The translations under genes were made by a program, and so were the position numbers. A DNA stretch of 64,000 bases from Lepidurus packardi (lineage: Eukaryota; Arthropoda; Branchiopoda; Notostraca; Triopsidae), in assembly GCA_023053545.1 (NCBI GenBank), contig JAKZAN010000004.1:2170001-2234000 (forward strand), given 5' to 3'. Positions 4,848 through 64,000 of the stretch are shown piece by piece. The notes under the pieces were generated by a model. That model did no database searches. It was not told where the DNA came from and was given only the letters and a program-made list of their open reading frames with translations. The first letter of the stretch is position 1, and the number at the start of each line of letters is the position of its first letter.

Positions 4848-7800
4848 ATGCAAAGTTTAAATGAAGAGATTAAGTTATGTAGTCTAAATATAAGAGGTCT
4901 AAAACAACCGATGAAGCAGAAACTGTGGACAAACTTTATTGAAAAATACGAAATAGATATAGTCTGCTTTCAGGAATTCAATATAGATTTCAACCCAAAT
5001 CCTGATAGATTTGATCTCATTTGTGATTTAGGACCTGGAAAACCAGGTATAGGTATTCTCTATAAAAAGAGCTTGAATTAAAGAATTTTAAAACATCAAC
5101 GACAGGTAGAATCTTACAAGCTTTTTTTAAAAACTTTATCGTGTTAAATGTCTATGGCCACCCAGGTAATCACCCAGCAGACGAGAGAAATGAGCTTTTT
5201 AATATATTTTTACCAATTTATCTTAAAAATGAAAACACACATACAGTATTAGTGGGCGATTTTAACGTTGTAATAGACGTGAAAGACGCTACCACACCGC
5301 GCATGAACGAGTTCCTAAAACGCGCAATAAAAGGCTTTGAACTAGTCGACGCATATCGCCTTCAACACGCACTAACAACAGACTTTACCTTTCTACACCC
5401 CAAAGGAGGAGCTAGACTCGACAGAATTTATTTGGGCAAAGGTTTGAAAAATAATTTTCATAAAATAGAACACACAACTTTCGTGGGATCTGACCACAAA
5501 GCGGTCATAGTAACACTCAAAGGCGCCCATGAAGACATAACAAGAAAAGAAATAAGACGGAGACCCAATAGATGGCACCTAAACCAAGACATGTTAAGCG
5601 ACCCGCGCTTCGACATACACGTTAAGGAACTAACTCAAGAGTTTACTACACGACTGGATTCAAAGAAACCTTACATAAGGTGCTGGAATAATTATAAAAA
5701 GAAAATTCAGCTATTTGCCAAGGGCCTCCAGCAAGAGATAAAGATTGAGCAAAATGTACTGAGATCGTTTTACAAGAGTTGTTTCGATGAAGCAAGTGAG
5801 AAAGTCAGTGCAAAAACAGGGGGTTGGGAGGACTTTGTGTACTATAGACAAAAATTGAGAGAAATGGAAACAAGTCAAATACAAGATGCATTATACAAAA
5901 GCCAAATAGATAGTATACAAAAGGGCGAACAAGCAAGCCTATCTCACGTACTGGAAGAAAAAAGGAAAGCTAACCAGAGCATCTTTAAAAGTTTACGAAG
6001 AACAGATGGGGAGCTGATTCACAAGGAAGAGGACATGAGAGTTTTATTCGAAAACCATTTCCAAACTATCTACACACCGGAAGAAGAAACAGAAGAATCG
6101 GAAGTTTTTGGAACAACTTTTTTAGAGACGGCAATATCCAATGATGACCTAGAAAATTTAAATCAAACTATAACGTGCAGAGAAGTTAGAACAGCAATTA
6201 ATTTATTACCTCGGAATAAATCCCCAGGACCGGACGGGCTTAGTGTCGAATTCTATACAAGATTTGCAGAGATTTTATCACCTCTACTGGTACTTTTAGC
6301 CAATGAAGTCTTCCCGGGGGGGCTCAAAGAGGGAGACAATGACAGTCTACTTAAACTTTTAGCGAAGGGAGGAGATAAAAAAAACATTCAAAACTGGAGA
6401 CCAATCGCACTACTAAACTCAGACTATAAAATTTTAGCAAAGTTGCTCGCTGAGCGAATTAAGCCATATCTAACGCAGGTAATCGTTCCTCATCAAACTG
6501 GGGGAGTACCCGGGAGGAACATTACGGACAACTTAACTAAAATTAGGAATGCAATAGAGTTTGCAACAGAGAGGTACAGGCAATATCCAGAAAACTTTAG
6601 TAATTATAAAATCGATTCAATTGCGAGATTAGGCGTCATCGCACTAGATCTCGAGAAAGCATACGATAGAGTAAACAGAAGCTACTTATTTAAAATCATG
6701 AAACTTTACGGCTTCCCAGACTACATCATTAATAGCATACAAGGACTCTACGAACATGCGAGATGCAAAATCTTAATCAATAAAATATCCACCAAGCCGG
6801 TAAACTTGAATAGAGGAGTAAGACAAGGGTGTCCTTTATCTCTTTATTTATTTAGTATATATATAAACCCTTTATTAACCAAATTAGCACATGAATTGCA
6901 TGGGTTTGATATCATAGGGGAAAAACAGACAGTAACGGGTTACGTGGATGATCTAACAATACTAACGGCTAAGGAGACGGATTTTAAACTTATAGAGAAA
7001 ACCCTAGATGCCTTTTGTCACTCATCAGGTGCAAAAATTAACTGGGAAAAATCAAGCATTATCGCTTTTGGGGCATGGCAGGGGAGAGAAGACTGGGCCA
7101 TACCAAAATTGAAAACCAAGCAAGATTTGCAGATTCTAGGGATTACCTTCAAGCAAAACATGTCCGAAACAATTTCCAATAACTCAAAAATTACAGTACA
7201 ATATGCAACTAAGAAATTCTACGTCTGGAAAACAATATTTTTATCCATTCATCAAAAAGTTAGTTACGTCAACCTTTATATTTTACCACTTTTATATCAC
7301 CTGGCAAGAATTTTACCAATTACAAAGCCCTGCATACGATTGATGAAACAAAAAGTAGGGACCTTTGTATCGGGCGGTAGGTTGGAGAGATTAGCCTATG
7401 AAGAAATTTTAAACGCACGTGCAGACGGGGGACTGGGCCTCGTGGACCTAGAGAGCCAGTGTAAAAGCTTCCAGTTACAGAAGCTGTGGAATGACTCACA
7501 ATCAACCGACAGAGCTACGAAAAGAATTGTAACGTATTTTACGGTTATACCATGGCGTAAAATATACCAAACACCAAATGGACCCAAAGCGGAAGTTATA
7601 CCCCTGTCATTAAAAGAGGCGCTCACAACAATGGGCGAACTCGCACATTTTTTAAAACGCGACCAAGCCTTCCCAAGAAAGGAAGTGTATCAGTTTTTAA
7701 CTGCAAAAAAATTAAAAACACCCAAGGTTATAGCTAAATACGGAGACAATGATTACCCAACTATTTGGAAAAACCTTAGCAGTAAAATTTTAACCTTGGA

Positions 7801-48139: not shown

Positions 48140-51100
48140 CAGGGCCGGATCATAATGGAGGCTAAGTAGGCTGCAGCCTAGGGGCCCGTGGTGTGGGGGG
48201 GCCCGTCAAAAAAGTACTCTTTCTCAGCAACACACATTCATTAACACTACAACACATCAATTCTCTCTCCAGCCTATCACGTCTGGCGCGCTTCTCAGGC
48301 CTTCACATACAGACACACCCACAAACAGACATTGTCAAACTTAGCGTCACACCCACAGGAGCCAGGAGGGCATGGATATGCTTGCAATTTGACATAGGCA
48401 ATGAACCAATGAAAATTCACTGTCAGTGTGGGCTATTCACTGTGTATTGTGTACGCTAGATACAGCGTAAACTTGAATAGAACACCACAGCCCAGAGGCA
48501 CTGCTCACGAGTCACCACTGCATTCGGCTTTTCTGCATACTGTTGTATACCTGCAGGTATGTATTGTATATTTGTATGCCATCTGTACTTGACATGCTTC
48601 GAAAGCAATTGTCTTGCATGAAACATATTTCGTGTACACCTGCAGGCTGCAGAATCATGTCTGGTTCATATCATCACAAATCGGGTGCAGAGAAAAGGCG
48701 CGTACAACAAGAGGAAAAGGAGCGTCTCGACAAGGTGTTGGCCAAAATCCCAAAGATAACAACCTTCCTGCCACGAAACGAACCTGCTAAAAGTGTTAAT
48801 GTTACCTTCTGAACCAGCAGATGAAGAAGCAGTTGAAGGAAGCGAAGACAATATCAAAGCAGAAACTCCAGTCTCAAGTGCTATACCAGAAACTGGTGAG
48901 TGTTGTGATTCTCATTCACGTCAATCACATAGTGAAATGGGAGGCATAAAGATGACTGTAACCGATTTGGCACAATGGCCTGAGACTGTTTCCACGGAAA
49001 TGCGATTGTATTGGGTGGAACGAGGTGGCGAAGAATGTCAGCATTCCGATGATGGATTTGAAGTCTCTAAAAGCGTGGATGGGGATCGGCAGGCTCGATA
49101 TTGTTCCAAAAGTTTGTTCACGTTTACGCATCCGCTCACTCATATGCAGATAAATAGATCTTGGCTTTGCTATTCCCCCACGACTGGAAAGGTATTCTGT
49201 TTCCCATGCAAATTATTCTCGGAACAAAATTCCTTCGCGAAGGGTGGATATAATGATTGGAAAAATGCCTCTGCACGCTTGACAAGCCACGAAAGAAGTA
49301 CTACGCATATTGGAGCAATTGGAAAGATTAATTACCTCAGACAAACGGAGGCTCGTGTCTATACAGGCTTGGAGCAACAATATGAAACAGAGTGTGCATA
49401 CTGGCGAGCAATCCTTGAACGCATCGTAGAGGTGATAACATTTCTTTGTGAAAGGGGCTTGGCCTTTAGAGGTGAAGATGAACTTCTAGGTTCTAAAACA
49501 AACGGAAACTTCATTGGGATACTGGAGTTGATTTCCAAATTCGATCCATTTCTAGCTGGTCATATTGAGAAGAGTAAAACGTTGCAAGGCAAAGGTGAAG
49601 GTCGAGGATACGTGTCATATTTGTCCTCCACTGTTTGTAATGAATTCATTGACATAATGGGAAAGCAAGTGTTGGACAAAATTGTAGCTGAAATTAAAAG
49701 TGCAAAGTATTACTCCATTTCTCTCGATTCAACTCCTGATGCAAGCAACGTCGATCGCTGCACAGTTACTTTTCGTTATATTCCTCCGAATGCAACCATT
49801 CCTGTTGAACGCTTTGTGAAATTCATAGGCATGGAAAATCATACTGCCAAAGAATTAACTAACAACCTGCTTAATTTTTTGTGTGAGATGGACATTGAGA
49901 TTGCCAACTGTCGAGGACAATGCTATGACAATGCCTCTAATATGGCAGGTAAATATCACGGCGTACAAGCATTGATACGTGAAAAGAATCCACAGGCTCA
50001 TCACATACCATGTTTTGGCCATTCCCTGAATCTCGTTGGAACCGAAGCAGTCAGAAATATTCCCGCAGCGACAGCATTTTTCGATTTTCTGCAGAACCTC
50101 TATAACTTCTTCAGCGCATCCACTAGAAGGTGGTCTGTCATGAGAGAATTTCTTGAGAACAATCCAGTCGTCAAAAGTCTCAGCAAAACACGTTGGTCTG
50201 CTCAGGCAGAAGCAACAAAAGCAATCACGCGTAGCTACAGTGAAGTAAGACAAACGTTGGACGCCATTCAGAAGTCTGATCAAGAAAAACCCGAAACGAA
50301 GCGTGAAGCCGCCGGACTGTTGACGAAAATGAAGCAGCTTGAATATGGGATTTTGACAGACCTGTGGGGGACCGCTTTGGAGCGTATCAATGAGACAAGC
50401 ATATCTCTGCAAAGCGAAAGTATGCATTTGAATAAAGCTGTACAGTTGTTGGCATCTTTGAAGTCATACATCGAAACGCTCAGAAACCAATTCGAAGACA
50501 TGGAGAAGAATGGGAAACAGAAGTCTGGCAATCTACACTACACGGAAGAGACGTCAAGGAAGCGATCGCGCAGTGCAAGGATGAAGGCATATGAGGGTCC
50601 AGCTGAAGAGACAAGTCTTTCAGCACGGGACAATTTCAGGACGAAAGTTTTTCTTCCCATTTGTGGATCAGCTAGCCGCAGCTTTGGAACGGCGCCTGGG
50701 AGCATACACAACAGTTTGCAGTCTCTTCGGCTTTCTCCATTGTCTCCACACGCTCTCTCCGAAAGACATCGGCGACAACATTTGTCCGAGCTTATCCAGG
50801 TAGGATTAATTCTATAGTATAGTTCTGTCATTATTGTACTATTGTACATTATTCCAGTTTTTTAGAACTTAATATGTTTGTATTTTACAGGAGATTTGGA
50901 AGAATCCCTTCCTGAGGAATTCGTTCATTTTACCGAATTTGTGAAGACATCCCCAACGACTGACAACGGACAATCTCAACAAAGCTACGAAATAATACTC
51001 TATCAGATTTCATCTCAGCCTGGCGTCCGCGAGACATTTCCAAACGTCAACACTGTATTGCGAATTTACCTTTCAATGTTCGTCACTAATTGCCAAGGCG

Positions 51101-51441
51101 AACGCTCCTTCTCTACACTGAACCGTGTAAAAAGTGTTATTCGCACCACTATGACTGATTGTAGGCTTAATTCTCTCAGTTTATTGTGCATTGAGAGTGA
51201 GGTCATGCGCTCTCTGGACTTTAAAGAGATTATTGCTGACTTTGCAAGAAAAAAAGCACGAAAAGTATCCGTTTAACTCGCACACTAACTCTTGTCGGAT
51301 ATCAATACATTCTGCATTTCCGCTCTATTTCTCAAATACTCTGTCTGCATTTTTAATTTAAGGAAGTCAAAAAAGTGGGGGGGGCCCGCGGATACGTCAG
51401 CCTAGGGGCCCGTAAAGGCTTAATCCGGCCCTGCCCATCAG
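48132..51441 (+). mobile_element. hAT transposon, ZMYM1-like, both ends present
   Basis: The element is 48140-51433. It starts CAGGGCCGGATCATAATGG and ends TTAATCCGGCCCTG, inverted copies with GGGGCCCGT motifs just inside each. The 8-bp target duplication CCCATCAG lies at 48132-48139 and 51434-51441. It is inserted in the gag region of LTR element B. Confidence 0.95.
48657..51276 (+). pseudogene. hAT transposase, ZMYM1-like (TTF-type finger), with breaks
   Basis: The ATG at 48657 starts a basic head (MSGSYHHKSGAEKRRVQQE, then LAKIPKITTFLPRN). The frame shifts near 48812. From 48793 follow a TTF/ZMYM-type finger region (SWLCYSPTTGKVFCFPCKLF), then the RNase H-fold core (YYSISLDSTPDASNVD, GQCYDNASNMAGKYHG, HHIPCFGHSLNLVG, SKTRWSAQAEAT). 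A second frame change is near 50650. The dimerisation region (LRIYLSMFVTNCQGERSFST) is in the frame from 50878. A GT...AG stretch between about 50800 and 50890 resembles an intron, but its phases do not fit the flanking frames, so I do not confirm it. This copy is not intact. Confidence 0.8.
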
Positions 51442-52939
51442 TTGACATTTATGCTGCTGAGATCCCGTTGCAAGATCCGCAAATCGAGTTTGACGCACCC
51501 ACCATCGCAAATCCTATTTTACCTCCCACAAACAAGATGCGAAAGGCGATGAATACGCCGCGGTTCGCAGGAACACACGACGAAGATCCCTTACGCTTTT
51601 TGACTAAGTATGAGCAAATTGCCGTCTTTAATGGATGGAACGATAGAGATACGCTCGAATACTTCAGTACAAGCCTCGATGGTCTAGCAGACACATGGTA
51701 CAATAACAAATACCCCGTTGGTGGATTACCACCACCTTTCTGGGAGCTGTTAAAAGACGAAATTCGCAAATCCTTCGTTCCGCAAGGTCGGATTTTCCGT
51801 AACACCGCCCGCTTGCAAATGCGCGTTCAACGTCCCGAAGAAACTGTAAATGAGTACTACATGGACGTCATTAACATGTGTCGAGAGATTCACCCTACCA
51901 TGTCTGACTACGACAAGCTAAATCACTTGTTCAGGGGTTTACGACCAGCCTTAGTGGAACCCCATCTCGTTCTAATGTACAAACATGTGAGAAGTTTTTG
52001 GAGGGAGCGAATTCAGTCAAGAAAGAAGCAGGGTGTCTCAATCATGGTGGACAAACGTCATGCGACATGAAGAGGCTATCGTAATGCATGCCGCCATAGC
52101 TGGAGTGAATATGTGGAGACAAGGACCACCCATCCCCATGGTACCAATTGAACCTCCCAGCCCAAGGAACAACTCAACGTCTGAATTTGGCGCCATCGCA
52201 GAAGCCCTAAGCAAGTTGGCCGGAGAGTTCCAGCAATTTGTTGAAAATTTTACGAAATTTCCAGGTAAAGGTGGCCGTTCTTATCCCCTCAACCGTTCCT
52301 TTCCTTCTCGCACGCATGATGGAAGGCCCCCGCGTGTTTTCGTTGTAGAAAACCGGGCCATATTGCACGTTTTTGCAACAATCCCGAGTTTAAAGAAAGC
52401 AATCAAGACCAGAACCGGCAAAGTCAAAATAGGGATGTGCGTGAACCCACTAGCGAGGAGAGGGGTGCCAACCAGTCATTCGGTAGGCCGAACGAGAACC
52501 AAGCAACGAGTAGCCAAGGTGCGTCTGGCACGGGAAACTAGTGGGGGCACCTCAAAGGGGTGGGGTAGCTCGAGCGGTTAAAATTCCCCTGCTGTGTGTA
52601 ATGTGTCCTAGGTTAATCAGAAAAACAGTAGTTTGTAATGGAGTTAGGGCACAGGCGATTATTGATACCGGTGCAGCAGTAACGGTAGTGTCAGAAGATT
52701 GGGTGAACCAACAGGGGGCGCAGTTAGTAGAATGGAGTGGTCCTGACATCGTGGTATCTAATGGGGCCTTTGCGCAGGTGAAACGTGGCGTGTTCTTGCT
52801 TGCAGGAAAGGAAGTTAAAACGAAAGCCGTAGTCTTCAACAACGGCTTGGCAGAGATCATCGTCGGCAATGATTTGCTGAGGCAGTTAGGAGACGTAACC
52901 CTGCGATATATCAGGTCGGCCACTTGTTTTAAACGATGA
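51442..52939 (+). pseudogene. LTR element B: gag continuation and protease, fossil
   Basis: Capsid-like gag features (FAGTHDEDPLRFLTKYEQ, FVPQGRIFRNTARLQMRV) are followed by a retroviral-type aspartic protease with QAIIDTGAAVTVVSEDW and IIVGNDLLRQLGD. They belong to LTR element B. The copy is broken and is cut off on the right by LTR element C at 52994. Confidence 0.75.
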
Positions 52940-52993
52940 GGGAAAAATAAACATAATTGCGGCAAGCGTGTCCAACCCAGCACTCGATATGTC

Positions 52994-53408
52994 TGTAAGA
53001 ATGTGCTTTTATTCTCCCGCTTATTTTTGAGTACCCCACCTATATTCTCCCGTAAACACTAGATGTCGCCCTCCACATGCATGAAGCCATGCATGTGTCT
53101 GATTAGTCCGCTATTGCCCAATACTGTGAATCCCCTTATTATGTACGAACCGCCCACACCAATGAAGTAATAGCTCAGCTTACTAGTTAATTGTTTTCCT
53201 GGTGGCTTTCATTTTATCAATCAGGGCAGTCAGAATTTTCCTTTAGTAGGGGTCGGTATTCGCCTTTGGAGGGTATGTACAAAATACATCCGTGAACCAG
53301 AGTCTAAGTCCTTTTTCGGACTCTAACTTTACTCCGAGAGTCCTGATAACCACAGCCTCTCCTTCCGCCACAAAGAACCTACTATAATTTGTAAGACACT
53401 TTCTTACA
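52994..53408 (+). repeat. LTR element C, 5' LTR
   Basis: 415 bp. It begins TGTAAGAA and ends TTCTTACA, a perfect 8-bp terminal inverted pair. Confidence 0.9.
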
Positions 53409-53410
53409 AC

Positions 53411-53428
53411 TGGCGCAGTCGGTAGGAT
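53411..53428 (+). other. Primer-binding site of LTR element C
   Basis: TGGCGCAGTCGGTAGGAT lies two bases after the LTR, the usual position and composition for a Gypsy-type tRNA primer site. Confidence 0.75.
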
Positions 53429-53554
53429 TGGCTTTTAGGCTCGTGATTATTCCCTGTTATTCTATTTAACCTTTCGAATATTAAAACATTTAAGTGAAGC
53501 AGTGATATTGTGGTTTCAGACGTCGAGTTCTTTTAAGGTCATTCTTGTGTATCA

Positions 53555-54772
53555 GTGATCGTGAAGATAGTGTCCCATCGTCTCGCTCGTTCTTGCAAAC
53601 ATCTAGACGACATCATGGACGCCCGCGGCAACCCATTGCCTACAGGTAACCCAAGTACTTCTACTGCCCTTCTCAACCTCCCACCCCTTCCATCGGTGTT
53701 TGCACCCGCCGCTGCACCTACGATGTCTACTACTGGCATCACTCGTCCAACTGCCCCTAGCTTCACGTTTCTAGGACAACCTCTCGCTCTTGACGATTCC
53801 GACTTAATCACCTTCTCCCGTCCAACTACCCCTTCCAATACCCGTAGCAGTGAATCAATCATTGCCATACTAAACCAGATCCCAAAATACGACGGTGGAC
53901 CTCGAATCAAAGACTGGTTAGTTGCACTAAGTATGCAATTAAGCAGCTATCCAGACCATAGTGATAGGATCCTGAGAGCCGTTCACGGAAGACTCGAGGG
54001 AGAAGCCCTCATTTTTTATCGAATGTTGGATGGCCCAACGAAAACTAATTGGGACACCTTTCGAGAATCCTTCCTCACCCGGTTTCATTACCCGGAAGTA
54101 GATGAGCAGGAACCACCTACCCAAGGCTCAACCGAAAAAATAGCGCAATACGCGCAAAAACTACTCTCCCATTCTCGAGATCACGGGAAACTCTACCAAC
54201 GTCTAAACCAAGGCGACGCGGGTGCAGCAACCGCCATCGAGGAAATCAATAAATCAGCTTTCCTCCGAGGCTTAAATGTAGCCCTCAAACCTCTTGTCCG
54301 ACGAGCTCTTGGCGATCAAGATTTGCGATTTGACGAGATTGTCACCCTTGCTCGTACTGAAGAGAAAAATTTTATTCCCCTCCCAATCTTCCCCACCGAA
54401 TTTATGGACACCGCCAACCGCTACCTTCAGCAGATTAGAGACATGGCGGCCGAACAAAAAACTCTCCTGCAGGAGACAAAATCTAGGATCGCTGGTGTTT
54501 TTTCAGAGTTCGAGGAGCCTTATTCCCATCATCCTGTAGCCGCCTTCGATTCCCAACCACCCGGCCCTCCCTCTTACCGTCCAAGTGGTAATGGACAAGG
54601 AAGAAGCGTTAACCCTCGTCCCCACCTGTCACCATCCCACCTTCCTGCCCGAGATGGACGGAATCAAGGTCCTTTCCGCCCCACTTTCCGCCCAGCCTAT
54701 CACCCTTTCCAATCCCGAGGCTTTAACCAACGCCCACAACAACCCATAAAATTTCTTGTATTAAAAACGTGA
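53555..54772 (+). CDS. LTR element C gag (fossil element part)
   Basis: 405 codons, Pro/Thr-rich at the N-terminus. A capsid-like region follows (IIAILNQIPKYDGGPRIKDW, FRESFLTRFHYPE, FLRGLNVALKPLVRRALGD), then a Pro/Arg-rich C-terminus. No zinc knuckle is seen. It ends just before the start codon of the captured gene at 54775. Confidence 0.75.
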   Translation: MIVKIVSHRLARSCKHLDDIMDARGNPLPTGNPSTSTALLNLPPLPSVFAPAAAPTMSTTGITRPTAPSFTFLGQPLALDDSDLITFSRPTTPSNTRSSESIIAILNQIPKYDGGPRIKDWLVALSMQLSSYPDHSDRILRAVHGRLEGEALIFYRMLDGPTKTNWDTFRESFLTRFHYPEVDEQEPPTQGSTEKIAQYAQKLLSHSRDHGKLYQRLNQGDAGAATAIEEINKSAFLRGLNVALKPLVRRALGDQDLRFDEIVTLARTEEKNFIPLPIFPTEFMDTANRYLQQIRDMAAEQKTLLQETKSRIAGVFSEFEEPYSHHPVAAFDSQPPGPPSYRPSGNGQGRSVNPRPHLSPSHLPARDGRNQGPFRPTFRPAYHPFQSRGFNQRPQQPIKFLVLKT

Positions 54773-55380
54773 CGATGTCTGATATTGAAGAGTCTGATGT
54801 TGAAAGCGGTGAGGAGGAGGAAGTAATAGTTGCGGATGAAACGGGTTACACACCCGGTCGCTGGGCTACAATTCAAATAACTAAGGCTCAGCACCTTAGG
54901 AGAATGATCGTGGGAGAGGCAATACAGACGCCCTTTGCTCTGTATAATCTTGGTGTTGATGTCTTTACGAAAATGGACACGCTTTATCAAACACTGGCTC
55001 TTGCTTTCTACACGTGGCTGAACTGCGTGTACACGTATGGTGCTTCCCCTTTGGAAGCCGAACTAGCAGTGGCTTGGTTCTTCGAGCATACGGGTCCGGT
55101 GCATTTTGATCGGGTAACCTACTTGGCAGAGGCAGCGTCCCACGAGTATATAGTAAAGATGTTCAACGCCATTAAGAATGGGGCGAGGGCATTAAATGGG
55201 AAAATCATGCCTACTAACATCTCGTCAGATTTAGCCCTGATGGTCCTTAACAATTCCAAGAAATCTGACGTTGAAAGGACTCCTCCTAACTCCGATGTAG
55301 CGTTGAGCTGTGGAACTTATGCCGACTTGGATGCTGTCTTGGCAGCAGTTATTCCATTGACCGAGATATTAAATCATATT

Positions 55381-55658
55381 TGGATCGTTCACCGGCGTAG
55401 GCTGGTTAAGAGACTTTAGCCGTTCCCGTAGAGAAGCGAAGCCCGGGGAATTCTGGGTAGGTCTTTCTCTACACCCCTTCACCTTGCATCGCCCTTCTCT
55501 AATCCCTCGCACCACCTCGTACCATGACCCTTCCCTTAATCCCCGACAATCCGACTCCCTCGGATCCGGGTACGTGGGTATTTAAGGGCGCGTCGCAGGC
55601 GATCGGATCACCAGTCGTCCTCGGTCGCTCCTGGCTGCACACCCTCCTTCTCGTTTTT
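55381..55658 (+). repeat. DIRS/PAT-like repeat A1
   Basis: 278 bp, identical to A2 at 60244-60521. Contains GGGTATTTAAGGGC, a possible TATA-type promoter. Confidence 0.9.
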
Positions 55659-55668
55659 TATAATCACC

Positions 55669-57209
55669 ATGGAAGGTAGGTCAGAGCCCTTATCCCCGCC
55701 TTCTCCTAGGGTCGACGTATTCGCCACTGCCGATTGCACCCCAGCCCGAAAGAAGTCCAGCACCCGCGACGCCTCAAAAACCAGAGATTCCGCCGGCAGC
55801 TGGAAGCAAGCGTCCTCTTCAGCCAGTTTGCAAGCGTCCTCTACAGCAAATTTGCAAGCGTCTTCTTCTGCCAGTTCGCAAATGTCTGCGTCAGCCAGTG
55901 TGAAGCCGCCTTCTACAACTACGGCCCAGTCCTCTGTGCCTCCTGTCGTCACACCCTCGGCTTCGCCTATTTCTGGTGATCTACTACACGGTCCGGTTTC
56001 GGCAGCGCTGGGTCATCCGCATTCGGCTTGGCCGCCCGGCCCATTCAATCCATGGGGCCACCTCTTCAGTTCGCCTGCTTGTTATCCGCAGCAATTTCTT
56101 GGCGCAAACCCATATTGCGGGATGTCAGTCGCCCCCAATGCGTTCTTACCACACGCGCAGACGTTTTCAGCCGCTCCTTTGCCAGCCGCTCCTTTGCCAG
56201 CCGCTCCTTTGCCAGTCGCTCCACTGCCAGCCGCTCCTTTGCCAGCCGCTCCTTTGCCAGCCGCTCCATTGCCAGCCGCTCCATTGCCAGCCGCTCCATT
56301 GCCAGCCGCTCCATTGCCAGCCGCTCCTTCGCCAGTTGCTCCGGCTCCCGCAGCTGCTCCGGCTTCAGCCGCTTCTTTGTCGGTAGGCTCAGTACCATCC
56401 GCCTACTATCTTCCAACGGGGCCCCTTCCAGCGCCCGCCATATCAGCCTCTTCGGTCCTTCCCTCGTCGGCACATTTCGCGTTTTTTTTTTCGCCTTTCT
56501 CGGGTCTCCCCTCGTCGCGGGACGCGATAATATTCCCGAACCCCCCTTGCCTCCCTTACCAGATGACTTGCGCGCTAAGATCGCGGAAGGCAAGATCGGG
56601 TTACCGTTACCCGAGTTGATCAAGAACTCCGATCTTGAAATCCTGAATGCCTCTAAAGGAAATTCTCCGATGTTAGTCGATCAGTGGGGGGTTGCCGCTC
56701 TAACCCTCTTTCTACACGCGGTCGAAGCCCGGTCCTCGATAAACTCACAGCTCCGCTTCGCTAAAGCCGCCATGAGGCACGTGCGTAATATGTTCCTTCA
56801 CTGGGCAAGATTACAACCCACGCAGTGGAACAACCTCGACCTGTCCGTCCGTCAGCGAGCCGACGCAGGTCCAGCAGCTGCTTCATTCTCGTTCCTCGAA
56901 GACGAAATGTGGCTCGCCAGTCAATCCGCGTCCCTGTTTTCCCAATCGGTCAGTCCCTCGACCCCTTCTCAATTCCCGGGCTGTCGGATGTGTCAAAAAT
57001 GCAAGAAATGGTCCCGGGGCAACGGCCTCATTTGCCGCAGCTTCAATCGCGGGCAATGCTCGGGTGCTTGTGGCTACCTTCACGAATGTTCCTCGTGCGG
57101 AAGCAGCTTTCATAGTGCCAACAAATGCCGCACCACTGGCCGCGGAGATAAACGTAAACGTTCACGGTCGAGATCCCCCCGCAGGCATGGCCTTCGCCCA
57201 AAAAACTAA
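55669..57209 (+). pseudogene. DIRS/PAT-like gag region (fossil element part)
   Basis: An Ala/Ser/Pro-rich head, a run of about eleven 15-bp units (about 56166-56335) encoding a Pro/Ala/Leu repeat, and a C-terminal zinc-binding block (CQKCKKWSRGNGLICRSFN, CSGACGYLHECSSCG, ending in an Arg/Ser-rich tail). The Cys/His block is typical of DIRS-group gag proteins. Confidence 0.75.
56166..56335 (+). repeat. 15-bp tandem repeat, about 11 units
   Basis: The unit GCCGCTCCTTTGCCA has two main variants (CTTTG and CATTG in the middle). The length is a multiple of three, so several frames on both strands stay open through it, creating long spurious frames. Confidence 0.9.
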
Positions 57210-57479
57210 GCCCGCAGCAGCCTGACAGTACGTTATTTTACCCTCCTGACTCTGCCTCTTCGGCTTCGTCTCTCGCTCCCGTTCTCAACGCCGCCCCTCG
57301 GGCGCAGCCCCTCGTTCGCTCTTCTCTCGATTTCCCGGCGACCTCCAGGACCTCATCTCATGCTACGGTCTCCGCTTCCCCAGCTTCGCCTTTCGTCCCC
57401 GTACTCATCGCCGCCCCTCACGCGCAGCCCCTGGTTTCCTTTTCTGGTGGTTCCCCGGTCAATGCAGCGAAGTTTACTC

Positions 57480-59074
57480 GGCTTGTTAGCAAATACATTT
57501 CTCCCGATTTAGCCGCTAAATGGTTGTCTGGTCTTACTATGGGCGTGGACATTGGCTTCATCGGTACCCCACGGTTCGCTTGCTCGGAAAATCCAAGGGC
57601 CCTCTTAGAACACGCATCAGCCGTGGACAGTTACATCGTCAACGAGATAGCCAAAGGTCACGTAGCCGGCCCCTTCCGTGAACCCCCGTTCTCGCATTTT
57701 ACCGTTAATGCTCTAGGTGTCGTCCCCAAGAAACCTTCGGGTATAAGACTAATCCTCGACCTCTCTCGGCCTAAGGGTTCGGCCATTAACGACTCTATTC
57801 CAGACGAAGCTGCCAGGGTCACGTACCACGGCATCGATCACGCTATTCAGCGCCTTCAGTCCCTCGGCCTTAAATCAAAAATCGCGTACATGGCTAAAGT
57901 CGACATTAAGAGCGCGTTCCGTTTAATACCCGTGAAGAGCGCGCAGTGGGCTCTATTGGGGTTCAAATGGCGCAACCAATATTTTTGCGACACTAAATTA
58001 CCTTTCGGCTGCAGATCTTCGCCTCGCATTTTTTGCGAATTCGCAGATTTACTGCGCGGCATCGCTAGAGCCGTGGCAGACTCCGAGGGTATCGACAATT
58101 ACATCGACGATTTCTTCGTCATCGAAGACTCTCAAGAGGAGTGTGCCAGAACACTATCCATCTTCCAGTCCATCTGTGACGATTGTACCATCCCTCTTGC
58201 TGCAGAAAAAACTGTCCTACCCACAACGCGTTTACTTTTGCTAGGTTACGTCCTGGACTCCGCTGCCAATTCCATTTCCTTACCGGACGACAAGTTAGCA
58301 GTGATATCGACTGAACTCGCTTCATTTTCCCTCGCTAGGACCGTTCGCAAACGGACGCTGGAGTCTCTCGTAGGAAAGTTATCATTTGCTGCCACGTGCG
58401 TCCCCATGGGCAGAATTTTCTTGCGGCGAGCCTACTACGCTCTGGCCAAGGTCAAAAACCACAACCACTTCGTTACTATTAACACCGATCTGCGAGCGGA
58501 CCTCCTCTGGTGGAAGAGGATGCTCCCCCTCTTCAACGGCACGGCACCCATTCTCCAGCCAAATTGGTCGCATCCGGGCGTGTTCCATCTCCATACTGAC
58601 GCCTCGGGCACTATTGGATGCGGAGCATGTTGGCAGGACCGCTGGTTTGCCCTACGCTGGTCTCCCGTCCTCGGCGACACCGCGATCTCCATGGCTCGGA
58701 AAGAGGGATTCCCCATTCTCGTCGCCTGCCTGATTTGGGGTGCCTTCTGGCAGGGCAGAAAGATCTTGCTATTCTGCGACAACCTAGGTCTCGTCGAAGC
58801 ATGGGCGTCCGGTTCGGCTCGCGCTCCTCCACTTGCAGCGTTGGTTCGCGAAATTGCTTTAGTGGCTTGTCGTTTTCATTTTTTGTTGCATTTAAAACAT
58901 ATCCCGGGAAAACTCAATGTCGCGGCTGATTGTTTATCGCGGGGAAATCTTGTTGGTTTTTTCCAGGCTCGCCCAACAGCTCGTCCGTCTCCAGACCCCG
59001 TCCCGAACCCGATTTCAGCTTTCGTCACTTCGCCGAGTCCGTCGTGGGTAGATATTCGGTGGAGCAATCTCTAG
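57480..59074 (+). CDS. DIRS/PAT-like reverse transcriptase and RNase H (fossil element part)
   Basis: DIRS-group RT motifs: LGVVPKKPSGIRLILDLSRP, MAKVDIKSAFRLIPV, LPFGCRSSPRIFCEF and the catalytic NYIDDFFVI, then LLLLGYVLDS. RNase H follows with FHLHTDASGTIGCGA, LFCDNLGLVEAW and HIPGKLNVAADCLSRG. This order and style separate it from Gypsy and LINE enzymes. Confidence 0.9.
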
Positions 59075-60036
59075 TCGAAGAAGCTCGGGCTCTACTCGAG
59101 TCATCGATAGCCCCTTCGTCCGCTCGCATGTACGCCTCCGCCGTAAGAGCCTTCTTCAGCTTCTCCAGGGTCATCAATAGACCGCTTCAGCCTGCCGATG
59201 ACAAGATATTAACGTTGTTCGCCGCCCACCTCTTGAGGGAGGGCAAGTCTCCAGACACGGTCCGGTCTTATTTAACCGCGGTCAAGTTTTGGCACTACTC
59301 TCAGGGTTGGCTTTGGGTCGCCGACGCCGCACCCTACCTCACCCTCACGCATCAAGCTCTCCAGCGCAAGCCGCGGTTCATCCAGCGTCGCCTCCCTATC
59401 TCCATCAACGTGATGAAGACTCTAAAACAAGAGATCCGTGTTACCTACCCCGACTCAGCCGTCCAGCGCCTCATTTGGGCAGTGGCCACGATGGCCTATT
59501 TTGGCGCCCTCAGGTCGTCAGAATATCTCCCGGCTACCCGAAAATCCAACCCTCCGCTGTTGTCTCGCGACGTCCGCATCACGGGTTCAGAGGTCACCAT
59601 CCGCATCAAGCGGTCCAAATCAGACCAACAGGGCAAGGGGGCGGTCGTCTCCTTTCGCGCCACGGGATCTTCGGTGTGTGGGTATCGCGCCATCCTTCGA
59701 TATGCTTTATGGCGTCATAACCTGGCGTCGGAGGCGTTCGCCGCCTTCTTCCTCTGGCCGTCCGGCCGTTACTCTCGCGTCGTTTTAACAAGGAACTGGC
59801 CCTACTCCTCCCCCCGTCGTCTGCTGGAGCGTTTTCAAGCCACTCCTTCCGGATCGGGGCAGCAACCGACTTGGCCCGCTCCGGCGCCCCTGATCACGCC
59901 CTCTTACGTCTCGGGCGGTGGTCAAGCAATGCGTATATGCGGTACATTCGGGACCAGAACGCTAACGCTCACTTTGAATAGTGTAACCCCTCATCCCTAC
60001 CTGTTATTCACAGTGTTGGTTTCAATTTGGCTCTGA
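58930..60036 (+). CDS. DIRS/PAT-like tyrosine recombinase (fossil element part)
   Basis: A phage-integrase-type N-terminal SAM-like region (SSARMYASAVRAFFSFSR, DTVRSYLTAVKFWH) and a catalytic domain with the first active-site Arg (MAYFGALRSSEYL) and RIKRSKSDQQGKG. It overlaps the RT-RNase H frame, as is usual in this group. It would insert circular cDNA without making target duplications. Confidence 0.85.
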   Translation: MFIAGKSCWFFPGSPNSSSVSRPRPEPDFSFRHFAESVVGRYSVEQSLVEEARALLESSIAPSSARMYASAVRAFFSFSRVINRPLQPADDKILTLFAAHLLREGKSPDTVRSYLTAVKFWHYSQGWLWVADAAPYLTLTHQALQRKPRFIQRRLPISINVMKTLKQEIRVTYPDSAVQRLIWAVATMAYFGALRSSEYLPATRKSNPPLLSRDVRITGSEVTIRIKRSKSDQQGKGAVVSFRATGSSVCGYRAILRYALWRHNLASEAFAAFFLWPSGRYSRVVLTRNWPYSSPRRLLERFQATPSGSGQQPTWPAPAPLITPSYVSGGGQAMRICGTFGTRTLTLTLNSVTPHPYLLFTVLVSIWL

Positions 60037-60133
60037 CGTCGGTTTGTTTCTCTTCACGTCTGTCAGACTGCTAGCGCGATGTCAGCGAATACAGAAGGTC
60101 GTTAGGCGTTTAGTTTGGAGGGCACGTTGTTTG

Positions 60134-60243
60134 GCGGCTATGTCCCGGGACTTCCGTCCCTAGGGACCCGAGTGGAGCTCCCACCTTTGAGGCCCTAATT
60201 TTTTATGCAATTCATCGGCGCAGCGGCTCAGGGAATCGGCTAA
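60134..60243 (+). repeat. DIRS/PAT-like repeat B1
   Basis: 110 bp, identical to B2 at 60569-60678 and directly abutting A2. Confidence 0.9.
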
Positions 60244-60521
60244 TGGATCGTTCACCGGCGTAGGCTGGTTAAGAGACTTTAGCCGTTCCCGTAGAGAAGC
60301 GAAGCCCGGGGAATTCTGGGTAGGTCTTTCTCTACACCCCTTCACCTTGCATCGCCCTTCTCTAATCCCTCGCACCACCTCGTACCATGACCCTTCCCTT
60401 AATCCCCGACAATCCGACTCCCTCGGATCCGGGTACGTGGGTATTTAAGGGCGCGTCGCAGGCGATCGGATCACCAGTCGTCCTCGGTCGCTCCTGGCTG
60501 CACACCCTCCTTCTCGTTTTT
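60244..60521 (+). repeat. DIRS/PAT-like repeat A2
   Basis: 278 bp, identical to A1. The B1-A2 junction is the internal copy of the element's end-to-end junction. Confidence 0.9.
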
Positions 60522-60568
60522 CCCTCCCTACCCTTACCCATTTTCTCCCCTTCGGACTCTGGGTGGAA

Positions 60569-60678
60569 GCGGCTATGTCCCGGGACTTCCGTCCCTAGGG
60601 ACCCGAGTGGAGCTCCCACCTTTGAGGCCCTAATTTTTTATGCAATTCATCGGCGCAGCGGCTCAGGGAATCGGCTAA
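60569..60678 (+). repeat. DIRS/PAT-like repeat B2 (right end)
   Basis: 110 bp, identical to B1. The right boundary of the element is at 60678. Confidence 0.9.
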
Positions 60679-61591
60679 ACGGTGTTTACCATCACATCGA
60701 CCGCACACCAACGTGTAACTAGGATCTTATGGGTAAAGCCTTCGACATTCTACTTATGGTATGCTCTGATATACTCCGGGTCATCAAATCGCCGGAGATT
60801 TGATAAATATGTTGCTCAGTGTAATTTGACTAAAACGGATATCCCATGGCCTTCAGACCCTACTGTTTTTTCTACAATTTTTGCCCATACCGGCCAAGGC
60901 AAGTCCCGTCTGTATATGAGGGATGCCATTGAGGAATTGGTTAAATCATCACCCCCGGAAATCTTGGGCCTTAAAAATCTAGTAACACAGTGCAAATTTT
61001 TCGGCATGACAAGTATCATCACGTTGCTGGAGGCCATGAAGGGTGTCACAGACTTTCCCTGGAAAAAGATCAACGGTCTCTTTCCCGATGAGTGGTCTTC
61101 CTTCATAACAATCCTTGATAAACTGACCCTACCAAACAACAAAATCGACCCTTATGGTGGGTTTGGGACCATGCGCGAACGGAATGAAGTCGCAGCCACG
61201 AAATTCCCCAAACTAGCTAAGGTGGGGTCTATGGTTTGCATCCGAATTTTGGGAAAATCTTCTCTGACCGATTCTCGCACGTTTATGGACTTCAATGACC
61301 TCGGATGGCAAAAGACTATAGTGCAAAATTTGATCGATAAATACTTGGAGCAACGCGCGGCTTTATCAGCTGATGGAGAGACGCTTGAAGCGAGAGCATC
61401 TGCTAAGTATGATGATGAAATAAAGGGAATTGGCGTTAAGGATATTTCTTAGATGGAGGGGGAAAGGGAGACTGGAGATGAGAGTAAAGATGGTAGGACG
61501 GATAAAAGTTAGAAGACAAACGTTGTGTAATGGGGGTAAAAGAACCCACGGGAACCTGGTCAACAGGTGCTAATCCACCCTTACAACAACC

Positions 61592-61633
61592 AATAAACTT
61601 CTTTCTTCTTTTAAAAAAAAAAAAAAAAAAAAA
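61592..61633 (+). other. AATAAA signal and 21-nt poly(A) tract inside LTR element C
   Basis: AATAAA at 61592-61597, then 15 pyrimidine-rich bases and A residues at 61613-61633. This is the expected 3' end of a polyadenylated RNA, about 140 nt after the stop of captured gene X and directly before the env-like signal-peptide region. Confidence 0.85.
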
Positions 61634-61975
61634 GAAATCCCTTCTAGGACTGATAGCATTTTGGATATGCGTCTTTCTTGTCATGGTTGGACCAGTCAGC
61701 CCAGAGTTGGAATCCCACCGTATAACCCTGGGAAGTATCTTCAAATACGAAGATCAATTAACCCTCACCAATTCGAAGTGGACCATAGTCTCCGATATAG
61801 ATCTTACGCCTTATGACATCATTATGGAAATTTTGGCACAATATCTAAGAAACTTCCGTCCCATAGACACCCACATCGAAACCAAAGTCACGGAATTCCA
61901 AAACTTCTTGGTCTTAGTTAACCTTACCATCAACCGAGAAAATCGCCTATTTACGAAAGATTTCAACGAGATAAA
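61634..61975 (+). other. Env-like N-terminal region of LTR element C, fossil
   Basis: A hydrophobic signal-peptide-like start (LLGLIAFWICVFLVMVGPVS) is followed by LTNSKWTIVSDIDLTPYD, a pattern seen near the start of errantivirus/baculovirus-F-type envelope proteins. The antisense PIWI piece follows. A further env-like stretch (about 62885-63064) lies on its other side. Confidence 0.5.
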
Positions 61976-62880
61976 AAATCAAACTAGAAAATATCCGACG
62001 TATAACAACGCCGCGCTTAGGATTAGCTGGCCTCCCACCCGCACTCATAATGCGAGTGTTCAGACGTTTGTTCACAAGAATTACAACCAACTTGGGATCA
62101 TAACCCGCATTTGTGGCTTGAAAAGCCGCTCTCAAAGAAGCGATCTCCTGCATCTTTACGTATGGAACGTCACCGGACCCTACACCATCGCGATAATAGA
62201 ATATTTTGTCTGGCAACGCGTTATTCTCTTTTTGATACGCCAGAAGAGACTTCCTCATGCAGATTCCGATCTTCGAGCACAACTCTTCGTTGTTTCCATG
62301 CAGTACGACAGTTGAATGATATTTTGTCATAGCTTGGTTAATGGAAGCTATGAAGGCGCCAACGCCGCGCTTCTGCCCCTTGTCATGATATGTGTCGAAA
62401 CCTAAGGCCATGGCGCCGGTAGGCGGGATTCTTACTCGCCACGCCTCGCATCCCAACTTGCAGGCCATTTGGATGTAGACTTTGGTTGCGACAGACAAGC
62501 CCTTCTTCAAAATTCTTCCCGTAATGACCTGGCTTGGAATCGCATTTTCGCACGTCAGGAGTTTCTTAACGGCAGCATACGTATCGGCGCCATGAGACTT
62601 CAAGAGAATCAGTATAAACTCAGGCCCCTTTGGAATAATGTTGGCGAGCTGAGCCACATATGCTTGAGGCATATCTCTCTCCAACGGAAACCTTGTAGCT
62701 GCATTCAGGTTCAGCACTAGACCCATATTTGCCACTCTGCTTAGGCTTCCCAGGAACTCATTAAGCTCTCCTTCCATCATCTTCGGATATACAATGGCCA
62801 ATTTGGTGAGCTTCATAGACGCCAAGAAAGTCTTGCCTCGCCCGTATCTACAAAAATTTCTCTTCTGTGCCCGCATGTTT
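61975..62880 (-). pseudogene. PIWI-domain fragment of a Piwi-clade Argonaute, antisense in LTR element C
   Basis: The minus-strand frame 62876-61947 (309 codons, no stop) matches the end of the MID domain and most of the PIWI domain. It shows IQMACKLGCEAWRV, MALGFDTYHD with catalytic Asp161, NNEELC with the candidate glutamate finger (Glu197/198), and IFYYRDGVGSG with Asp230, followed by KRLNTR. The final catalytic His and the C-terminus are missing, as are the N, PAZ and most of the MID domains. There is no intron in about 900 bp, so an RNA-derived copy is likely. Piwi proteins use piRNAs to silence transposons in the germline. It opposes the element's transcription and lies between two env-like stretches. 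The last about 20 codons of the frame are flanking sequence. Confidence 0.85.
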
Positions 62881-62884
62881 CACT

Positions 62885-63064
62885 AACCTCTCGAGTCTTA
62901 GAAAAGCGGACTGAAATACTGGGAGTAGGATTTTTAGTGTTGCCGCCGAAGTGTACTTTGCAGGCGCCTACGTTTTCGATTCCAGCCACTTACTCCGAAT
63001 ATACCAACGTGCGATCGCAAATTTCTTTTACTCCGGGACGTAGTTTTTCCAATGGGGGAAGTGA
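62885..63064 (+). other. Second env-like stretch of LTR element C, fossil
   Basis: A plus-strand reading gives FLVLPPKCTLQAPTFSIPAT, which resembles the mid or late region of insect retroviral-type envelope proteins. It runs up to the 3' LTR. A weak call on its own; it is supported by position. Confidence 0.4.
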
Positions 63065-63161
63065 TGTAAGAATGTGCTTTTATTCTCCCGCTTATTTTTG
63101 AGTACCCCACCTATATTCTCCCGTAAACACTAGATGTCGCCCTCCACATGCATGAAGCCAT
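63065..63161 (+). repeat. LTR element C, partial 3' LTR
   Basis: The first 97 bp of the LTR, identical to 52994-53090. The next base begins CAGGGTTGTACGG, which looks like the end of another transposon. Confidence 0.9.
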
Positions 63162-64000
63162 CAGGGTTGTACGGATTTGAACTTAAGCCGGATTTAAATC
63201 GGATTTAAGACTGTTTTTATAACATGCTAAGGCTTGAGAAATTTTCACAAGCTCATTTTGAAGTGAGTTGACCTTGGTCTTGAACTTAAAGGCAACCGTA
63301 TGACAGTGATTTGGAAAGGGCTTAAGTAGAAAGCATCTTACTTATACGAGGCGGATATGAAAGTTCATTTTCTGAACTATTGGGGTAAAGGTGAGCTCAG
63401 CAAACGCCTTTCACCAATCACAATCACAATCGCAATTTCTCAGCAATCGCCTTTCTATGAAACGGGAAACGGAAATTTTTTTAAGACTAACCAACCAGTG
63501 TTGCCAGACTTGGCGATTTCTCGCCAAAATTGGCGACTTGAAAACATGAACTGGCGACAATTTTTGGGCATTTGGCGATGGCGGTTTGTTTGGCGACTTT
63601 ACTGTATCTTTGCTTTTTTGTTTTGATTAAATGAAAGTAAAGCAAGCCTGTACAAACGCATTTTCTGCTCCATGGTCTCAAAATAGTTCATAGTGTAGAG
63701 TAGAGACGGAGTAGAGATATATAGAGAGGGAACATGCAGGATGTAGCCCCTTCCTTATGGGCCTTTTGTTATCACTTTACGAAAGCTGCAGGCTAGTTCT
63801 CTGAGAGGACATCATTGGTCAGACCTGTTTGATCAACGCCTTGCTCATGGCGGGAAATATAAAAATGAGGCTCAAACGAAAAACGATAGCAATATGGATA
63901 AGTATGTTTCGAGACGTTAGGAAATTGATGCAAACCTGTAGAAACACACTTTTTGCTCCCCAGTCTCAGTATAGTTATATGCTTATTTTTCTGTTTCTGG
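63162..64000. other. Unassigned right flank, probably further transposon sequence
   Basis: Begins CAGGGTTG, a hAT-like terminal style, directly after the cut LTR. It contains CCGGATTTAAATCGGATTTAAG, CAGTGTTGCCAGACTTGGCG at about 63496 with several TTGGCGA motifs, and a degenerate direct repeat (about 63647-63692 and 63932-63977, CCTGTA(C/G)AAAC...GCTCC). No coding region recognised. Confidence 0.4.

Follow-up and report, generated by a model that had tools for sequence, protein, structure and literature searches.

An antisense piece of spliced piwi mRNA carried by a family of env-bearing LTR elements in Lepidurus packardi

LTR elements capture host or viral RNA through template switching, and gene capture has reportedly been studied in the endogenous retroviruses of crocodilians. 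The nearest described relative of the case reported here is TART-A of Drosophila melanogaster, a telomeric LINE with a captured piece of the host piRNA-pathway gene nxf2; 3′ transduction is the route suggested by the authors (Ellison et al., 2020; PMC7785250). In the parts of that report used here, the piece is found in nearly all full-length copies, piRNAs come from both partners, data on piRNAs, the degradome and expression are available, and the captured piece is proposed to yield piRNAs antisense to the host mRNA, with silencing relieved. Within the literature searched, this one system supplies most of the evidence that transposable elements of animals use captured sequence against the piRNA pathway; the searches found no retroelement with a captured antisense piwi piece, and a term search of one review (PMC13269885) found nothing on counter-defence. 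A second Drosophila system bears on mechanism: according to the portion of the study drawn on here, a cytoplasmic transcript that bears an antisense fragment in its 3′ part is enough to set off piRNA production and silencing in trans, an effect weakened by a cryptic poly(A) signal (Rafanel et al., 2026; PMC13226689).

The locus described here resembles TART-A/nxf2, as presented in those parts of the report, in that several element copies carry a piece of a host piRNA-pathway gene. It differs in that the carrier is an LTR element, the piece is spliced mRNA lying antisense inside env, and the would-be target is a piwi gene itself. With the second system, as far as the consulted portion describes it, it has in common that a transcript, here a predicted one, contains an antisense fragment towards its 3′ end; there a host transcript with antisense element sequence silences the element, whereas here an element transcript would bear antisense host sequence. 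Distinctive here are the captured gene (piwi), the strand (antisense) and a match that spans spliced exon junctions.

The window, that is, the whole 64,000-nt stretch analysed (C3:2170001-2234000, from a genome of 108.6 Mb in 344 contigs), contains an element flanked by the 4-bp target duplication TGTC, with the following features in window coordinates.

52994..53408, plus strand: 5′ LTR, with ends TGTAAG...CTTACA and TGTC directly before it
53537..54744, plus strand: gag, 98.6% identical to gag of the C263 copy, severed at 54744 by the junction with a captured N-like mRNA
54745..55380, plus strand: captured N-like mRNA, part 1, in sense; together with part 2 it stands in place of pol
55381..60678, plus strand: nested retroelement of about 5.3 kb within the captured N-like mRNA, with RT and phage-integrase-like frames and split direct repeats A-B/A-B
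60679..61631, plus strand: captured N-like mRNA, part 2, with AATAAA at 61592 and a terminal A-run of about 20 nt
61631..62009, plus strand: left env piece, 98.7% identical to C263, meeting piwi through an 8-nt overlap at 62002-62009 (ATAACAAC)
62002..62838, minus strand: captured piece of spliced host piwi mRNA (MID/PIWI part), antisense to the element, as aligned to the host gene
62838..63021, plus strand: right env piece, 0/182 mismatches against a C16 copy without piwi
63022..63064, plus strand: stretch preceding the 3′ LTR, common to the element's relatives
63065..63161, plus strand: first 97 nt of the 3′ LTR, the rest of which lies beyond the window at C3:2239535-2239852

We take the nested retroelement to be Ngaro/DIRS-like. 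At 63162 the 3′ LTR is broken by a ~6.4-kb insert, presumably hAT-like, which starts CAGGGTTG, extends to C3:2239534 and has an 8-nt duplication. Rfam gave no matches within 50000-64000 of the window. LTR ends of the form TG..CA and a short target duplication agree with a Ty3/gypsy-type element. The window copy itself lacks pol; in the C263 relative the order is protease-RT-RNase H-integrase, with RVT_1, RNase H and Integrase_H2C2 above cut-off, weak protease matches, and a weak Retrotrans_gag match under the Pfam cut-off. In L023, core integrase could be read by eye and env matched Baculo_F above cut-off (PF12259, E 1.1e-7).

The first-pass annotation of this DNA had proposed an antisense PIWI fragment of the Piwi clade, open throughout, inside an env-bearing LTR element, and both parts were borne out. 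Env lies on either side of the piece, and the minus-strand stop-to-stop frame at 61947-62879 has 310 codons, with a Pfam Piwi match over residues 88-294 (E 1.1e-41). Its closest solved structure is silkworm Siwi (E 7.1e-51), and PIWI-clade chains rank above Ago-clade chains. Aligned to the host gene, the frame extends past the piwi part on both sides, and these two end stretches (61950-62001 and 62839-62879) are antisense env. A homolog search with the frame gave no matches at E 0.001 in a collection that seems poor in such animals.

The source, which that annotation had suggested seeking among the host's own genes, is host piwi at C5:6491391-6492760. The window piece equals the host mRNA at 827 of 835 aligned bases (99%), a similarity far beyond chance, and the C263 piece at 1030/1041. 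The C5 gene is in frame across the C-terminal ~375 PIWI residues, with GT-AG introns at 5539-5687 and 6553-6609 of L009 and motifs that we take by eye to be those around the D-D-H residues. Intron 1 is missing from the window piece, and the longer C263 version lacks both host introns exactly; the captured RNA was thus spliced. We searched the genome with two queries: 1,662 bases around the piwi piece gave 62 matches, with scores for 40 of the 68 candidates, and 3,121 bases from the host piwi gene gave 17. Besides the source, the host-gene search placed the captured part only in C263, C3, C30, C38 and C88, and two more weak C5 matches (76% and 83%) fall in another piwi gene part. As candidates for a second source gene, other Piwi/Ago loci on C2, C299 and C191 were rejected, being just 24.8-34% identical to the host piwi part; the comparison covered those three and left aside the loci on C4 and at C3:5927496.

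Copies without piwi have an env reading that continues across the capture site. At this site C263 has lost 17 nt of env and has a 1,043-nt piwi piece instead, running from the last sense codon back to an exon start, with neither 3′ UTR nor poly(A). The right junction (62838 in the window) is the same in C3, C263 and two C2 loci, which retain only ~30 nt of its piwi side; these two loci lie 8,047 nt apart, are identical across the 1,354 nt compared and probably represent a duplication. In the window copy, which is a form with a deletion, env at 62009 meets piwi at 62002 through the short overlap given above. C30, C38 and C88 gave a first impression of separate captures and turned out to be deletion derivatives of one capture: they have in common a series of deletions that left three short piwi pieces in each, the third with a poor-identity block in it (CDS about 314-339), and a search for this arrangement returned exactly these three loci. 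An env stretch of ~490 nt that includes the membrane anchor in other copies is gone at the same point in C263 and C88, and the window and C2 loci lack it plus ~70 nt more; C263 also has an 80-nt deletion that disrupts the frame of the piwi C-terminus. CDS positions 357 and 363 differ from host piwi in every copy that covers them, and C3 and C263 both differ from it at positions 223 and 731. Variants private to the window copy stand at CDS 142, 246, 247 and 824. Because junctions and substitutions are common to them, a single capture explains all piwi copies. We also considered a processed pseudogene made by a LINE. The absence of introns fits, but the piwi ends have neither poly(A) nor a target duplication, and 17 nt were lost instead, which argues against this origin.

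Subsequently the piece moved with the element. A piwi piece or edge is present at a minimum of seven loci (C3, C263, C30, C38, C88 and twice on C2), at least nine related copies have an uninterrupted site (two on C16, two on C5, C86, two on C162, C2:10952119 and C4), and one further copy without piwi (C5:11321352) has a deletion at the capture site; these counts are lower bounds, since 40 of the 68 candidates were scored. As in TART-A/nxf2, the element rather than the host gained sequence, the host gene having introns and surrounding exons and nine copies being uninterrupted; those nine related copies without the piece also set the family apart from TART-A, as described in the parts of the report used here, where nearly all full-length copies carry it. 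The 4-bp target duplications are all different (in element orientation, TGTC in the window, ATTC in C30, TCGG in C38 and ATTG in C88). LTR pairs of piwi-bearing copies diverge by 0-1.1%, with differences of 0/415 in C3 (window), 5/452 in C263, 0/432 in C30, 3/429 in C38 and, for the first part of the LTR only, 2/326 in C88. The 99% identity to the host gene and the identical LTR pairs of the window and C30 copies indicate a recent capture. The first-pass annotation had reached this conclusion from the open frame; its conclusion stands and its argument is weak, since eight random substitutions would leave the frame without a stop with a probability of ~0.76. In an LTR tree of 14 rows the piwi label changes three times, of which well supported branches force two (bootstrap not settled). 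Piwi-bearing copies thereby occupy at least three LTR backgrounds, and the piece probably passed between them by recombination. Comparison with relatives shows damage to pol in each of the five main piwi copies, which makes movement in trans likely.

Sequence comparison between copies gave no sign of extra conservation of the piece. Differences between C3 and C263 number 10/837 in piwi, 13/1138 in gag, 3/369 in left env, 1/181 in right env and 10/415 in the 5′ LTR, so that piwi does not appear to be conserved more strongly than the rest of the element, and there is no visible constraint on its complementarity to host piwi. Among the private piwi changes, 9 of 11 alter the protein, with 8.1 expected without selection; this pattern shows no selection on the protein frame, and the idea of a PIWI-domain protein maintained by selection was discarded on these grounds. 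Counting against plain hitch-hiking, the trimmed sublineage retains 313 nt of piwi-derived sequence versus 122 nt of the env part upstream.

Piwi is one of four captured pieces in this family, and three of them (piwi, a fucosyltransferase gene and a viral L gene) are antisense. The fourth, the N-like mRNA in the window, is in sense and is joined to gag at CACAACAACC and to env inside its A-tract, junctions that would make a textbook picture of template switching. Relatives without introns, 444-474 codons long and with 84-88% protein identity, occur at several further loci, and C26 has four partial copies in tandem. The product is possibly a viral nucleoprotein. It had no Pfam family match; a homolog search with the first part gave no matches at E 0.001 in a collection that seems poor in such animals, an IMG/VR scan and a PDB search with the second part likewise gave none, and the AlphaFold model, with a mean pLDDT of 33, gave no usable fold. 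In a C162 copy, pol contains an antisense piece of 785 nt from a host fucosyltransferase gene, at 98.7% identity (L028:5186-6002, C162:31685-32501); the piece was seen just once besides its source, C2:5141582-5142367 (Glyco_transf_10, 1.8e-40). In a C2 copy, a 3.1-kb antisense piece of a rhabdovirus-like L gene is flanked by a 56-nt LTR stub and by integrase (L029:1872-5008, C2:10947371-10950507), with an open frame of 1,044 codons; the same stretch recurs 7.7 kb away (C2:10939696-10942852), and it was found in those two neighbouring places only. Among nine copies checked for foreign stretches, none was found in the fetched parts of L022-L025, L027 and L030, and L026 ends in unrelated transposon sequence. 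The piwi piece has in common with template-switch RNA capture by LTR elements its lack of introns, its place inside the element and its short-overlap junctions; what differs is the antisense strand of three of the four pieces and the several different captures within one small family.

The first-pass annotation had further held that any transcript from the 5′ LTR would carry RNA antisense to piwi. For the window copy this is doubtful, because the poly(A) signal at 61592 and the A-run of the captured N-like mRNA lie upstream of piwi, as does the nested 5.3-kb retroelement. In C263, no A[AT]TAAA occurs from the piwi piece to the end of the fetched stretch in the 3′ LTR; C88 and C30 have one AATAAA each in the scanned part, at a position that is ambiguous relative to piwi. 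The longest perfect matches to the host piwi mRNA measure 367 nt in C3, 221 nt in C263, 96 nt in C30, 87 nt in C38 and 91 nt in C88. The host stretch has 1,103 26-mers, of which the window copy matches 664 perfectly, C263 787, C30 104, C38 95 and C88 100, which would be enough for small-RNA targeting if RNA is made. The host genome also contains one cellular RdRP gene with a DLDGD motif, making antisense RNA of a spliced mRNA and amplification of siRNAs conceivable.

We consider it quite probable, and the most likely reading, that spliced piwi mRNA was captured once by template switching and later spread as a hitch-hiking by-product of promiscuous capture. An env-bearing Ty3/gypsy-type element took up the 3′ coding part of the spliced host mRNA, which came to lie antisense in the env gene in exchange for ~17 nt. 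Most likely, reverse transcriptase switched templates in a particle, going either to piwi mRNA while it made the plus strand or to an antisense piwi RNA while it made the minus strand. Thereafter the element with its piwi mark lost parts of env and pol, reached at least five loci, presumably by mobilisation in trans, and probably exchanged the piece among LTR backgrounds by recombination. Since the family takes up other RNAs too, piwi was not picked for being piwi, and any inference of purpose is weakened. What speaks against hitch-hiking is that piwi alone of the four pieces spread to several dispersed copies, including copies with identical LTRs, as a benefit would give. This wider spread is the one hint of benefit and proves nothing at four pieces; the three or more LTR backgrounds would also fit a favoured module, and the numbers are too small to reject a benefit. 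Nothing here indicates selection for an antisense-piwi function, to judge from the sequences compared. Transcripts reaching the 3′ LTR would be antisense to piwi across 0.3-1 kb, and piRNAs or siRNAs could be made from them. The counter-defence suggested in the first-pass annotation starts from such transcripts: chimeric RNAs would reach the cytoplasm and give piRNAs or siRNAs antisense to piwi, Piwi would fall and the element would transpose. By analogy this would be the TART-A/nxf2 logic directed at the central effector itself, and the portion of Rafanel et al. (2026; PMC13226689) drawn on above makes the mechanism plausible in general. Also in its favour are the long perfect matches, the host RdRP, the nxf2 precedent as far as described in PMC7785250, and the recent multiplication of piwi-bearing copies. 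The piece nevertheless lacks excess conservation, is mostly gone from C30, C38 and C88 and nearly so at C2, has a poly(A) signal upstream in the window copy and shares its family with unrelated captures, and we regard counter-defence as possible, though unlikely. A broader version seems similarly doubtful: the family's tendency to pick up antisense RNA (three of four pieces) would make it a vehicle for transposable antisense cassettes, an anti-piwi one favouring the element by lowering Piwi through piRNAs or RdRP-boosted siRNAs, an anti-virus one perhaps favouring the host.

Benefit to the host is very improbable as an explanation. Antisense-piwi copies might brake piwi dosage, or sense piRNAs derived from piwi mRNA might target the element, the homology exposing it to silencing; homology does act both ways, as the piRNAs from both TART-A/nxf2 partners suggest in the parts of PMC7785250 used here, but some of the youngest insertions bear piwi, so exposure did not stop them. 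Scarcely credible is a truncated PIWI-domain protein that interferes with Piwi. The minus-strand frames, open over 310 codons in the window copy and over 337 in that of C263, would allow it; yet private changes look unconstrained, the 80-nt deletion in C263 breaks the C-terminal frame, C30, C38 and C88 hold fragments only, and the minus strand has no known promoter. Junctions between unrelated genes are a common artefact, and an assembly chimera or cloning artefact at 61975-62880 had been offered as an alternative; its chance is next to nil. The same right junction recurs in C3, C263 and two C2 loci with different flanks, as the first-pass annotation had proposed looking for, and deletion derivatives sit at three more loci with their own target duplications, which excludes a chimera short of systematic misassembly at all loci. 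The find is real, recent and unusual. Several insertions are young enough that their presence or absence may still vary between individuals, which makes the counter-defence idea directly testable. A neutral capture would still be of interest: this small family, whose four foreign RNA pieces include three antisense ones, lends itself well to the study of RNA capture by reverse transcriptase and of the entry of viral pieces into genomes.

Two further observations concern individual copies. The C263 and C30 copies sit in a minisatellite array with a unit of ~20 nt (L010:1-744 and L011:1-1805). The copy in L013 (C88:23223-25221) is a miniature derivative that measures 1.67 kb from LTR to LTR, of which ~300 nt are piwi-derived.
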